Assembly (NCBI GenBank): GCA_017396695.1
Contig: JAFQLC010000003.1
Location: 1-64,000 of the forward strand
DNA length: 64,000 nucleotides
Source of the DNA: a bacterium
GTDB lineage: Bacteria > Cyanobacteriota > Vampirovibrionia > Gastranaerophilales > Gastranaerophilaceae
Reading direction: 5' to 3'
Part shown: piece after piece, positions 5,359-54,967 of the stretch
How the letters are laid out: each line of letters begins with the position of its first letter
Position numbering within the stretch: position 1 is the stretch's first letter
Position numbers and translations under genes: made by a program
Notes under the pieces: model-generated
The model's input: the letters and a program-made list of their open reading frames with translations, nothing else
What the model was told of the DNA's origin: nothing
Databases searched by the model: none

Positions 5359-5415
<57 letters not shown>

Positions 5416-5435
<20 letters not shown>

Positions 5436-5462
5436 TTTTAAACCACCCAAAAGGGTGGTTTT
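5416..5462 (+). repeat. 47-bp direct repeat, copy 1 (tRNA-fMet 3' end plus terminator)
   Basis: This stretch covers the last 20 nt of the initiator tRNA (with CCA), the TTTTA linker and the terminator hairpin. It is identical base for base to 5582-5628. The base before each copy differs (C versus A). Confidence 0.95.
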
Positions 5463-5465
5463 TTA
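5441..5465 (+). terminator. intrinsic terminator of tRNA-fMet
   Basis: AACCACCC, AAAA loop, GGGTGGTT, then a run of T: an 8-bp stem followed by a T tract, directly after the tRNA. Confidence 0.9.
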
Positions 5466-5581
5466 ATTAGAGAGGCATACTTATACGGGCTCACAAGGCT
5501 TATTCTTCGCCTGTTCGCTTTGCACCGATTAGGTACAAGTTCGCACAAATCGAGCAAAAGCTCTCTTTGGCTCATTTTGCA
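5466..5581 (+). other. tRNA-associated cassette between the two 47-bp repeats
   Basis: About 116 bp with no credible reading frame. It holds small inverted repeats: AGGC...GCCT around 5497-5512, GAGCAAAAGCTC around 5552-5563, and ATTTTGCAAAAT at its right edge. The left arm GAGGCA (5472-5477) is complementary to TGCCTC (5588-5593) within the truncated tRNA copy, so cassette plus tRNA fragment could fold as a closed RNA. A similar arrangement follows tRNA-Leu at 32.6-32.8 kb. Integration scar, decayed tRNA duplication and structured RNA are all possible. Confidence 0.5.
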
Positions 5582-5628
5582 AAATCCTGCCTCCGCAACC
5601 ATTTTAAACCACCCAAAAGGGTGGTTTT
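5582..5628 (+). repeat. 47-bp direct repeat, copy 2 (truncated tRNA-fMet end plus terminator)
   Basis: Exact copy of 5416-5462. It holds only the 3' 20 nt of the tRNA, so it cannot encode a functional initiator tRNA. The duplicated hairpin lies at 5607-5628 and keeps its T tract. From here to the next gene (5629-5718) there is only AT-rich spacer and the ribosome binding site of the next gene. Confidence 0.95.
5607..5628 (+). terminator. duplicated intrinsic terminator
   Basis: Second copy of the AACCACCC-AAAA-GGGTGGTT hairpin, followed by TT and then A. It would end any transcript made from the cassette. Confidence 0.8.
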
Positions 5629-32538: not shown

Positions 32539-32585
32539 AATTTTAGTATATAAATTTAAGAAAATTTTGCAAGAATTGGAAACAA

Positions 32586-32611
32586 AAAAGAAGCTCGAAA
32601 GAGCTTCTTTT
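32586..32611 (-). terminator. terminator after the tRNA-Leu cassette
   Basis: An 11-bp perfect stem AAAAGAAGCTC / GAGCTTCTTTT with a GAAA tetraloop. Because A and T tracts flank both sides, it could act in either direction. Confidence 0.75.
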
Positions 32612-32613
32612 AA

Positions 32614-32711
32614 TGGTGGACGTGAAGACTCTGCCGAAGAAAATGCGAACCATTGAGCATTTTCTGAGAGGGCAAATAGCGAAGCGGTTTGCTCACTTCA
32701 CGACTTATACT
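32614..32711 (-). other. tRNA-Leu-associated cassette with truncated tRNA end; candidate structured RNA
   Basis: Read on the minus strand, the cassette ends in CTTCACGTCCACCA (32627-32614), which matches the last 14 nt of tRNA-Leu at 13 of 14 positions. CGTGAAG (32621-32627) pairs with CTTCACG (32696-32702). Inside lie two hairpins: AGAAAATGC/GCATTTTCT (32638-32646 with 32657-32665) and GCAAA/TTTGC (32672-32676 with 32688-32692). No coding frame fits. The arrangement parallels the one after the initiator tRNA. Confidence 0.5.
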
Positions 32712-32741
32712 AAAAAAAGAGTGACAATAGTCACTCCTTTT
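32712..32741 (-). terminator. intrinsic terminator of tRNA-Leu
   Basis: On the minus strand the GAGTGAC/GTCACTC stem (7 bp, loop of 4) is followed by seven T. It lies 11 bp after the CCA end of tRNA-Leu. Confidence 0.85.
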
Positions 32742-32747
32742 TATATA

Positions 32748-32832
32748 TGGTGGGCGTGAAGGGAATCGAACCCCCATGAGTTTCCCCACTAGATCCTAAA
32801 TCTAGCGCGTCTACCAATTTCGCCACACGCCC
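32748..32832 (-). tRNA. tRNA-Leu (anticodon TAG)
   Basis: 85-nt class II tRNA with encoded CCA. Acceptor GGGCGTG/CACGCCC; anticodon stem CTAGA/TCTAG around the loop TTTAGGA, giving TAG. A long variable arm (GTGGGGAAACTCAT region) and T loop GTTCGATTC are present. The stretch 32833-32934 to its right holds AT-rich spacer only. Confidence 0.95.
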
Positions 32833-52418: not shown

Positions 52419-53180
52419 ATGGATAAACAATATACAACAGATGCCATCAACATAAAAAGTTATCCGCTCAATGATTTTGACAACATTTTGCTTATGTATT
52501 CAAAATCTGCTGGGCTTATTAAGTGTATTGCGAAAGGCGCAAAAAAACCAAAAAGCAAGCTAGGCGCAAGGGCGCAAGTTTTGTTTGCAAATAAACTTAT
52601 GTTGAATAAAGGCAAAACTTTTGACAAAATCACTCAAGCTCAAGGGCTAAACACGTTTTCAAAGTTAAGGGAAGATTTTGATAAACTCTCTTACGGATTA
52701 TATTGTGCTGATTTTATTTCAATTTTCTGTGCAGATACAGAAGAAGAAGCTGAAATAATATATGATATTTTCTATAAAACTTTGGAAAATATTGCAAATT
52801 CAAAAGATAAAAAAGAAATTCTCCTTCAAACACTTAAATTTCAACTTCATATTTTAGAAGAATTAGGATGGGGAATAGATTTTAGGACTTGCTCATGTTG
52901 TGGAGCAGAAATTGAAGAATACTCTTATTTTTCAAACGAAGAAAAAGGGAATTTCTGCACCTGCTGTGCTAAAAGCAATATCAAAGTTCAAAAAATTCCT
53001 AAAAAACTAATTGAATTTTTGAGCACATTAAAAGAAGTAGCAATGGACGAGAAAACGCAATACGACGAACTTGCAGACCTAAACACAGTCAACATTTGCT
53101 TCCAATTTATAAAAAAATATTCAGAAAAAATCTCAGGAAGAGTTCAAAAATTCTCAGATTTTAATTTGATTGCCTCTTAA
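52419..53180 (+). CDS. recO: DNA repair protein RecO
   Basis: 253 residues. N-terminal OB fold (TDAINIKSYPLNDFDNILLMYSKSAGLIKCIAKGAKKPKSKLGARAQ), then the helical domain and a four-Cys zinc site (CSCCG...CTCC), the normal RecO layout. With RecR and RecF it loads RecA at single-strand gaps. Its 3' end overlaps the convergent tlyA gene by 20 nt. Confidence 0.9.
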   Translation: MDKQYTTDAINIKSYPLNDFDNILLMYSKSAGLIKCIAKGAKKPKSKLGARAQVLFANKLMLNKGKTFDKITQAQGLNTFSKLREDFDKLSYGLYCADFISIFCADTEEEAEIIYDIFYKTLENIANSKDKKEILLQTLKFQLHILEELGWGIDFRTCSCCGAEIEEYSYFSNEEKGNFCTCCAKSNIKVQKIPKKLIEFLSTLKEVAMDEKTQYDELADLNTVNICFQFIKKYSEKISGRVQKFSDFNLIAS

Positions 53181-53943
53181 GATATATCAAAAATTCTTTA
53201 TTGCCTGATTTAGAGCCTAAAATTGGTGATTCAATAACTCCAATTGTTTGAAGCCCAAGGCTTTCGGCATAATTTTTAACATTTTGAACAATGCCGAGCC
53301 TAACATCCTCATCAACAATTAAACCGCCCTTTTTAACTTCATTTCTTTTAGCTTCAAACTGAGGCTTAATTAAAAACCCAAATTCTGCACCACTTGAAAC
53401 AAAGTTTAAAACATTTTCAAGCACCTTCTCGATTGAAATGAAAGATAAGTCCATTGACATAAAAGAAGGCAATTCACCCTGAAATTCGGATTTTTCGCAA
53501 CCAAAAATATCGGCAAATGAGCAGTTTTTGGCATTTGTTTTCTCTATATTTTTGACTCTAACATCTGTTGCAAGCTTCCAAGCAAGTTGATTATACCCAA
53601 CATCAACTGCGTAAACATACTTAGCACCAGATTGTAACATGCAATCAACAAAACCGCCTGTTGATGCACCAATGTCAATTGTAACCCTATCTTTTAAATC
53701 TATATTAAAATGCTTAATTAGTGCATTAAGTTTTAAACCGCCACGAGAAACAAATGGCATTGATTTAACTTCAATCAAAACAGGATTATCGCCTTCAAAA
53801 ATTTCAGGGTTATATAGCTCTCCTGCCTTACGTGCTGGCTCGCCTCCAATTTTCACATTACCAGCTAAAATGTTTGCTGAAGCCTTTGCTTTAGTTTCAA
53901 AATATCCGAGTTCAGTAAGGATTAAATCAAGTCTTTTTTTCAT
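53161..53943 (-). CDS. tlyA: TlyA-family rRNA 2'-O-methyltransferase (hemolysin A type)
   Basis: 260 residues. N-terminal S4 RNA-binding domain (KKRLDLILTELGYFETKAKASANILAGNVKIGGEPARKAG) and a FtsJ-like Rossmann domain: VSRGGLKLNALIKHF, TIDIGASTGGFVDCMLQSGAKYVYAVDVGYNQL and IKPQFEAKRNEVKKGGL with catalytic K-D-K-E elements. It methylates 16S/23S rRNA cytidines. It is in a minus-strand set with tatD and a small gene. Confidence 0.92.
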   Translation of the reverse strand: MKKRLDLILTELGYFETKAKASANILAGNVKIGGEPARKAGELYNPEIFEGDNPVLIEVKSMPFVSRGGLKLNALIKHFNIDLKDRVTIDIGASTGGFVDCMLQSGAKYVYAVDVGYNQLAWKLATDVRVKNIEKTNAKNCSFADIFGCEKSEFQGELPSFMSMDLSFISIEKVLENVLNFVSSGAEFGFLIKPQFEAKRNEVKKGGLIVDEDVRLGIVQNVKNYAESLGLQTIGVIESPILGSKSGNKEFLIYLKRQSN

Positions 53944-53955
53944 AATATGCCAATC

Positions 53956-54210
53956 TTACGCCAAATGTTGCTCTTCTTGAAGTGCAACACCTGCAATTTG
54001 ACTTGATAAAATGCAAACTTTTTTAATTGGTCCATTAGCAGTTAATTCAAGAAGCTTAGGCTGAGCAGAAGAATTAATAACCTCTTGAATTTCTTTATAT
54101 TTTTCTTGAGGATTATCAAAATATAAAACCAAAGGCGCTGCCCAAGATTTACCAAAAAGCAAAACCGAATTTTTTGTTTTAAAATTTTGCGGAACAAATT
54201 GTTGTGTCAT
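53956..54210 (-). CDS. small conserved-looking protein of unknown function
   Basis: 84 residues from ATG 54210 (MTQQFVPQNFKTKNSVLLF); the open frame runs further upstream, but that part overlaps tatD. It starts 1 bp after the tatD stop and ends 12 bp before tlyA. The sequence looks like one small alpha/beta domain (SWAAPLVLYFDNPQEKYKEIQEVI, KKVCILSSQIAGVAL), with no signal peptide or catalytic motif. Not recognised. The tight gene packing argues that it is real. Confidence 0.65.
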   Translation of the reverse strand: MTQQFVPQNFKTKNSVLLFGKSWAAPLVLYFDNPQEKYKEIQEVINSSAQPKLLELTANGPIKKVCILSSQIAGVALQEEQHLA

Positions 54211-54211
54211 A

Positions 54212-54967
54212 TTAAGTCTCCAAATTAAAAATCTTATTGGCATTTGCCGTTGTAACGCTCGCAACTTCATCTAGCGAAATGTCTTTGAGATTTGCAATTT
54301 CACGAGCAATTAAAGGAATGTATGATGGTTCGTTTTGCTCACCTCTGAATGGATGAGGGGTAAGATATGGGCAATCCGTTTCAAGAACTATATTTGCAAG
54401 CGGAACTTCTTTAACAACTTCTTTAATCACCTTGGCATTTTTAAATGTTACAACTCCGCCAATCCCGAGGTAATATCCCTTTAGGATGCAATGCATCGCC
54501 ATCTCAACAGAACCAGAAAAGCAATGCAAAATAACATTTTTTAAGTTATAAGCATCTAAAATGCTCATTGTATCTGCATGCGCTTCTCTATCATGCACCA
54601 TAACAGGAAGCCCAAGGGCTTCAGCAAGCTCGAGTTGAGCTTTAAAAAGAATTATTTGCTTTTCTTTATTTTCTTTATTCCAGTAATAATCAAGCCCAAT
54701 TTCACCAATCGCACGAATTTTAGGGTGCGAAGAAAGATTTGCAATTTCTTTTAAAACAGCAGGCGAAAACTTATCAATATCTTCTGGATGAACCCCAAGA
54801 GAACCATAAACATTATCAAATTTATCAATTAAATTGATAATTTCATGAAATTTATCTGGTCCAACACCAGCAATCATAATTTTTTCAACTTGCTTTTCTT
54901 TAGCCCTAGCAACTATTTCTTCAGGATTTTCAAAAAAATCCAAATGCGCATGTGTATCTATCATCAT
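54212..54967 (-). CDS. tatD: TatD-family metal-dependent DNase
   Basis: 251 residues. MIDTHAHLDF (first HxH metal ligands), GVHPEDI, IRAIGEIGLDYYW (Glu ligand), LPVMVHDREAHADT, VILHCFSGSVEMA and VLETDCPYLTPHPFRGEQNEPSYI are canonical. Family role: 3'-5' DNase and DNA-damage repair. There are two adjacent start codons (54967, 54964), and no strong ribosome site is visible. Confidence 0.94.
   Translation of the reverse strand: MMIDTHAHLDFFENPEEIVARAKEKQVEKIMIAGVGPDKFHEIINLIDKFDNVYGSLGVHPEDIDKFSPAVLKEIANLSSHPKIRAIGEIGLDYYWNKENKEKQIILFKAQLELAEALGLPVMVHDREAHADTMSILDAYNLKNVILHCFSGSVEMAMHCILKGYYLGIGGVVTFKNAKVIKEVVKEVPLANIVLETDCPYLTPHPFRGEQNEPSYIPLIAREIANLKDISLDEVASVTTANANKIFNLET

Follow-up and report, generated by a model that had tools for sequence, protein, structure and literature searches.

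The cassette that follows tRNA-Leu(UAG) in the window, the whole 64,000-nucleotide stretch of DNA that was analysed, is likely to be one copy of a short non-coding palindromic repeat of Gastranaerophilales, which inserts in or beside structured-RNA genes, mainly those of tRNAs, and whose hairpin insertion duplicates the end of the gene. The distribution of this tRNA-end-associated repeat suggests that it is probably mobile, and the cassette most probably does not function as a tRNA. Our searches, in mostly open-access literature, on palindromic and repeat elements of Gastranaerophilales and on RttR/tyrT returned no description of such cassettes.

The tRNA-Leu cassette and own-end copies in its genome

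The intact tRNA-Leu(UAG) gene occupies 32748–32832 on the minus strand (ARAGORN; Rfam RF00005, 59 bits), and all parts of its cassette lie on the same strand. A terminator-like hairpin, recognised from the sequence, stands directly 3' of the gene (32712–32742). It is followed by the left arm of an outer stem, which is an inverted copy of the tRNA end (CGTGAAG, 32696–32702), by a second arm GCAAACCGCTTCGCTATTTGC (32672–32692), by the core hairpin CTCTCAGAAAATGC...GCATTTTCTTCGGCAGAGT (32628–32670) and, directly after GGCAGAGT, by the truncated copy of the tRNA-Leu 3' end (32614–32627). In this copy, CTTCACGTCCACCA at 32627–32614 agrees with the tRNA end at 32761–32748 in 13 of 14 positions. The cassette closes with a second terminator-like hairpin (32584–32611), which sequence comparison showed not to be a copy of the first. 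The coordinates thus confirm the order of tRNA-Leu, terminator, cassette, truncated tRNA end and second terminator proposed in the sequence-only reading. Relatives have a sequence resembling the second arm, GCAAYCGCTTCGCTTTTGC, in their tRNA-Phe, Arg and Leu cassettes.

The cloverleaf-like fold that had been suggested for the cassette stood in part. All three stems are present in the sequence, namely the 7-bp outer pairing of 32696–32702 with 32621–32627, a 9-bp hairpin (AGAAAATGC/GCATTTTCT) and a 5-bp hairpin (GCAAA/TTTGC), but the minimum-free-energy fold (−26.1 kcal/mol, z = −2.8 against dinucleotide shuffles) keeps only two of them, the outer stem and the 9-bp one, and gives the third arm another pairing. 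Neither ARAGORN nor Rfam recognised a tRNA in the cassette, and no cloverleaf ending in CCA was found on its transcribed strand. At the gathering threshold, Rfam gave only tRNA matches in the window and no homology to RtT.

The initiator tRNA-Met, intact at 5359–5435 on the plus strand (ARAGORN), has the same plan of parts, as had been claimed. A 47-nt segment comprising the last 20 nt of the tRNA and the terminator (5416–5462) recurs as a perfect direct repeat (5582–5628), so that the truncated tRNA end matches at 20 of 20 positions. The 119-nt insert between the two copies (5463–5581) belongs to a different hairpin family lacking the CTCTC..GGCAGAGT core, possibly a second insert family, and the cassette folds no better than shuffled sequences (z = −1.0). 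This insert and an intergenic repeat elsewhere in the genome (G000:C13:209222-209379) share motifs such as TTCGC and CTCACA with the Asn and His cassettes. The third tRNA of the window, tRNA-Gly, has no cassette; two of the three tRNAs therefore carry one, in agreement with the earlier reading.

For each of the 30 tRNA genes in the window's genome, we scanned 400 nt of flank on either side for truncated copies of the gene's own ends, the check that the sequence-only reading had proposed, here extended to 5' flanks. Such copies occur at nine genes: five at the 3' end (tRNA-Asn, Pro(GGG), fMet, His and Leu(UAG)) and four at the 5' end (tRNA-Met, Ile, Leu(CAA) and, more weakly, Leu(GAG)). The matches span 10–28 nt, and shuffled flanks score at most 9, under every strong case; for the weak Leu(GAG) copy the score is 8, and its shuffles reach no more than 6. 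When a complete relative without the core hairpin (G007) was scanned in this way, own-end copies were found at 0 of 31 tRNAs. Given the nine positive genes, the lower shuffles and the hairpin-free relative, the own-end copies are not due to chance, the alternative that would have undone the earlier proposal.

A core hairpin at structured-RNA genes of Gastranaerophilales

The core hairpin has the form CTCTC, a variable stem and TCGGCAGAGT. The 43-nt core of the Leu cassette recurs without any change in the window's genome, where it stands 5' of tRNA-Ile (G000:C28:12064-12106), and in relatives the core is found at tRNA-Leu, Met, Val, Lys, Pro, Phe, Arg and others. Using the pattern CTCTCARAAAN{8,38}TTYTTCGGCAGAGT, we detected it in 95 of 286 Gastranaerophilales genomes, with up to 24 copies in one genome, while the reversed control pattern gave zero matches in the 286. 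The pattern was absent from about 38 genomes of the phylum outside the order. Viral contigs also had no match, and a viral origin was rejected on this ground. By inspection, the core does not carry the integron attC sites (RYYYAAC / GTTRRRY), its ends being CTCTC and TCGGCAGAGT, and at the scanned loci Rfam matched only tRNA, 5S and LSU rRNA.

The 106 core copies that were fetched include 91 distinct ones, and 54 of these have a tRNA or tmRNA gene no more than 500 nt away. A unit consists of a flank, an arm with an inverted piece of the tRNA, the core hairpin and the tRNA-end copy, and GGCAGAGT immediately adjoins the truncated end copy of a tRNA, tmRNA or 5S gene, 5S rRNA genes being targets as well. 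The bases that follow GGCAGAGT could be matched to the neighbouring gene in 42 copies, and in all 42 the intact gene stands on the CTCTC side; the copied end is the 5' end in 24 and the 3' end in 18. A tRNA-like, CCA-ended RNA is accordingly not supported as the general design, because those 24 copies are antisense and have no CCA end. Across 27 tRNA/site types, inverted matches in the left arm average 7.7 nt for the adjoining tRNA and 5.3 nt for other tRNAs (Wilcoxon p = 8e-7), so that a three-way junction of gene end, arm and core is possible, although some 5'-end cassettes (Val, Leu) have little inverted arm. Of 33 arrays, 16 have a duplicate of the flank that follows the tRNA end, with 80% or more agreement across 20 nt, and in six, the window's Leu cassette among them, the flanks differ; a simple target-site duplication therefore does not fit every case. 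Units stand alone or, in many arrays, in tandem, for example two at Leu in G003 and four of 84 nt at Val in G120.

Several arrangements were observed beside these units. In G184:C16 (~52900–54688, L155), tandem truncated 5S copies follow an rRNA operon, each carrying the core hairpin together with a second hairpin type (CTCCATTC..GAACGGAGTCC). A dispersed element of ~200 nt, TCATATAGTCAACTGACTCCGA...CACTCAGACA, occupies many intergenic sites in genus g6 (L099–L126; for example in G006, G100 and G164, with hits such as G164:C3:51280-51317), has no Rfam match, and holds in its loops insertions of the core hairpin and of further hairpins. Tandem own-end copies also stand beside RAYT genes at tRNA-Glu(CUC) in G214:C25 (L188) and tRNA-Arg(CCU) in G141:C48 (L175); these arrays lack the CTCTC..GGCAGAGT core, and the architecture thus exists with other inserts.

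The units are polymorphic and patchily distributed among close relatives. At tRNA-Lys(CUU) in one genus, the sites of G278, G196, G316 and G290 are empty while others are filled, and since the distal flank is identical in G294 (filled) and G278 (empty), the difference between them is the unit itself; an empty site is nevertheless ambiguous, as a unit lost by recombination between its two tRNA-end copies would look just like a site that had never been filled. In further species, another hairpin family (CTCCATTC..GAACGGAGTCCTTG) is found at the same tRNA-Lys spot.

Covariation in homologues was a further check proposed for the cassettes. An alignment of 26 cores of 40 nt has 97.8% of its cells paired and 63 double changes against 15.8 in shuffles, where the invariant ends are partly forced by the search pattern and the inner stem is not. 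The inner stems of 124 cores comprise 1192 Watson-Crick cells and only 11 G-T(U) cells, that is, 11 of the 192 non-Watson-Crick cells against a shuffle expectation of 12.6%; G-U pairs are not enriched among the exceptions. Since the compensatory changes are nearly all Watson-Crick without a G-U excess, we infer that the core is a DNA palindrome and not an RNA under selection. The earlier proposal of an undescribed tRNA-end-targeting element or tRNA-like RNA family thus survives in its first half, through the 95 genomes, matched gene ends, tandem arrays and empty sites, and fails as a general design in its second, through the antisense 5'-end copies and the absence of a G-U excess.

Alternative origins and candidate mobilisers

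The units might have arisen purely by mutation, through slippage or template switching at tRNA genes that produced tandem duplications and inverted pieces without any mobile element. The arm holds inverted and direct pieces of one tRNA, some flank/arm joints show possible microhomology (TCAATGTG in the Val array of G120), and the tandem arrays would also suit such an origin. Nevertheless, we consider it unlikely, because a core with fixed ends is common to different tRNAs, tmRNA, 5S and the unrelated ~200-nt dispersed element, and identical cores stand at two loci of one genome. Local slippage alone gives no core sequence; a template switch into a second cassette could do so.

Transposition as REP-type repeats by the RAYT (Y1/HUH) transposases of some of these genomes appears rather improbable. 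A RAYT gene is present in 29 of the 95 hairpin genomes and a Y1 gene in 13 of the 22 genomes with at least three hairpins; at eight of the 22 RAYT loci inspected, counted by eye, a tRNA gene or a truncated copy of one is found within ~600 nt, and two RAYT units sit inside tRNA-Phe cassettes (G095:C7, L176; G071:C9, L186). CTAC, moreover, precedes the core in 39 of the 91 distinct copies. Over the 286 genomes, however, the Y1 transposase does not correlate with the presence of the hairpin (Fisher p = 0.36), and several RAYT units have different ends of their own (e.g. GTAG GTTGGG...CCCAAC and its mirror). The tag expected for REP is GTAG 5' of the hairpin foot (PMC6006769); neither GTAG nor CGTC was found at the 5' foot in the 91 copies, and CTAC lies on the opposite side in only 43% of them. 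RAYT is therefore unlikely to be the driver. It seems to be at least a guest that settles in the hairpins, since RAYT loci are concentrated near tRNA genes and the unit in G095 sits in the loop of a core hairpin, with its own GTAG-tagged hairpins on its flanks. Reverse transcriptase (PF00078) was rejected as the driver, for lack of correlation over the same 286 genomes (Fisher p = 0.37). No protein moving the core was identified among the Y1 transposase and reverse transcriptase candidates in these genomes, and neither was found in the window's genome, which is 80% complete.

It is very unlikely that the cassette is a functional small RNA of the kind reported for E. coli RttR/RtT, made by read-through transcription that starts at the tRNA promoter and by processing at the tRNA-like end. 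Its plan resembles that of tyrT/RttR, the Leu cassette is more stable than shuffled sequences and the stem changes are compensatory; but a terminator separates the tRNA from the cassette, the fMet cassette folds like its shuffles, G-U pairs are not enriched, antisense 5'-end copies with no CCA end make up 24 of the 42 checked, and the units have no Rfam match and are patchy in close relatives. Finally, integrative elements entering tRNA genes do leave a partial tRNA copy (PMC9897764) and the 3'-end copies of 10–20 nt would fit att-site scars of tyrosine recombinase islands later deleted from tRNA 3' ends, but this origin is scarcely credible given that the inserts are short (up to ~200 nt) and, RAYT insertions apart, gene-free, that many copies lie at 5' ends and identical units stand in tandem, and that one core with a fixed junction recurs at different tRNAs, tmRNA and 5S.

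Relation to known repeats and a possible mechanism

The closest known case is the 178-bp repeat of E. coli tyrT (RttR/RtT), so that the plan, taken earlier as undescribed, is not wholly new, while its reading as an element is supported. In E. coli tyrT, used as a control, tRNA-Tyr is followed by a flank, an inverted arm GGGGAAGGAT, a direct half of the T arm (GGTTCGA), a hairpin CTCGAGCG...GCTGAGT and a 19-nt tRNA end, and this unit occurs three times in tandem with a 19/19 tRNA end each time. As in tyrT/RttR (with tpr), the Gastranaerophilales units at tRNA-Leu, fMet, Asn, His and Pro finish with a copy of their neighbour's 3' end, preceded by an inverted tRNA arm and a hairpin, with exceptions among the 5'-end copies. 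In contrast to tyrT/RttR, which was seen at one tRNA and its 3' end, the Gastranaerophilales family involves many tRNAs and both their ends, tmRNA and 5S, and it has a different core, is polymorphic and belongs to another phylum. Beyond the plan, we found no sequence homology between the two.

Other small repeats share fewer features. Double-hairpin elements are found in the mitochondria of Allomyces. These and the RHE of sponges resemble the present repeat as tiny hairpins in or beside RNA genes but reside in organelles, whereas the Gastranaerophilales repeat is bacterial, and to our knowledge the mitochondrial mobile hairpins have not been described as regenerating a gene with a matched end copy. 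The sponge mitochondrial RHE are ultra-short hairpins in or near rRNA and tRNA genes (PMC2800124). REP/REPIN sequences with RAYT are likewise short intergenic palindromes with many copies, tandem clusters and RAYT genes nearby, but the Gastranaerophilales hairpin lacks the GTAG of the 5' foot by which REP are defined (PMC3733652, PMC6006769) and stands at tRNA ends with matched copies, and the RAYT units have other ends. The CGTC-tagged Rickettsia palindromic elements are small palindromes at many loci (PMC3733652), as here, yet the present repeat has no CGTC tag and is tied to tRNA-end copies.

If the repeat is mobile, the hairpin DNA might enter a stem-loop of the RNA gene, probably single-stranded during replication or transposition. 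Such an event would duplicate roughly 25–60 bp, comprising the gene end together with the terminator or promoter, and the duplication would regenerate an intact gene, which could make the insertion harmless. Tandem arrays might then expand and contract through recombination between the repeats. More tentatively, the cassettes could belong to a new class of minimal mobile DNA. Its members would be hairpins that enter the stem-loops of RNA genes, each insertion restoring the gene through a copy of its end, with terminator or promoter and an inverted piece; E. coli tyrT might be another example, and the process might be general in bacteria and as yet undescribed.

The many RNA genes, empty sites and tandem arrays point to many independent insertions, from which the mechanism may be readable. 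The repeats of E. coli tyrT have been a curiosity for decades. The Gastranaerophilales repeat would provide a second, far larger family built on their plan, in a phylum remote from that of E. coli, and it warns that truncated tRNA ends need not be the scars of genomic islands.
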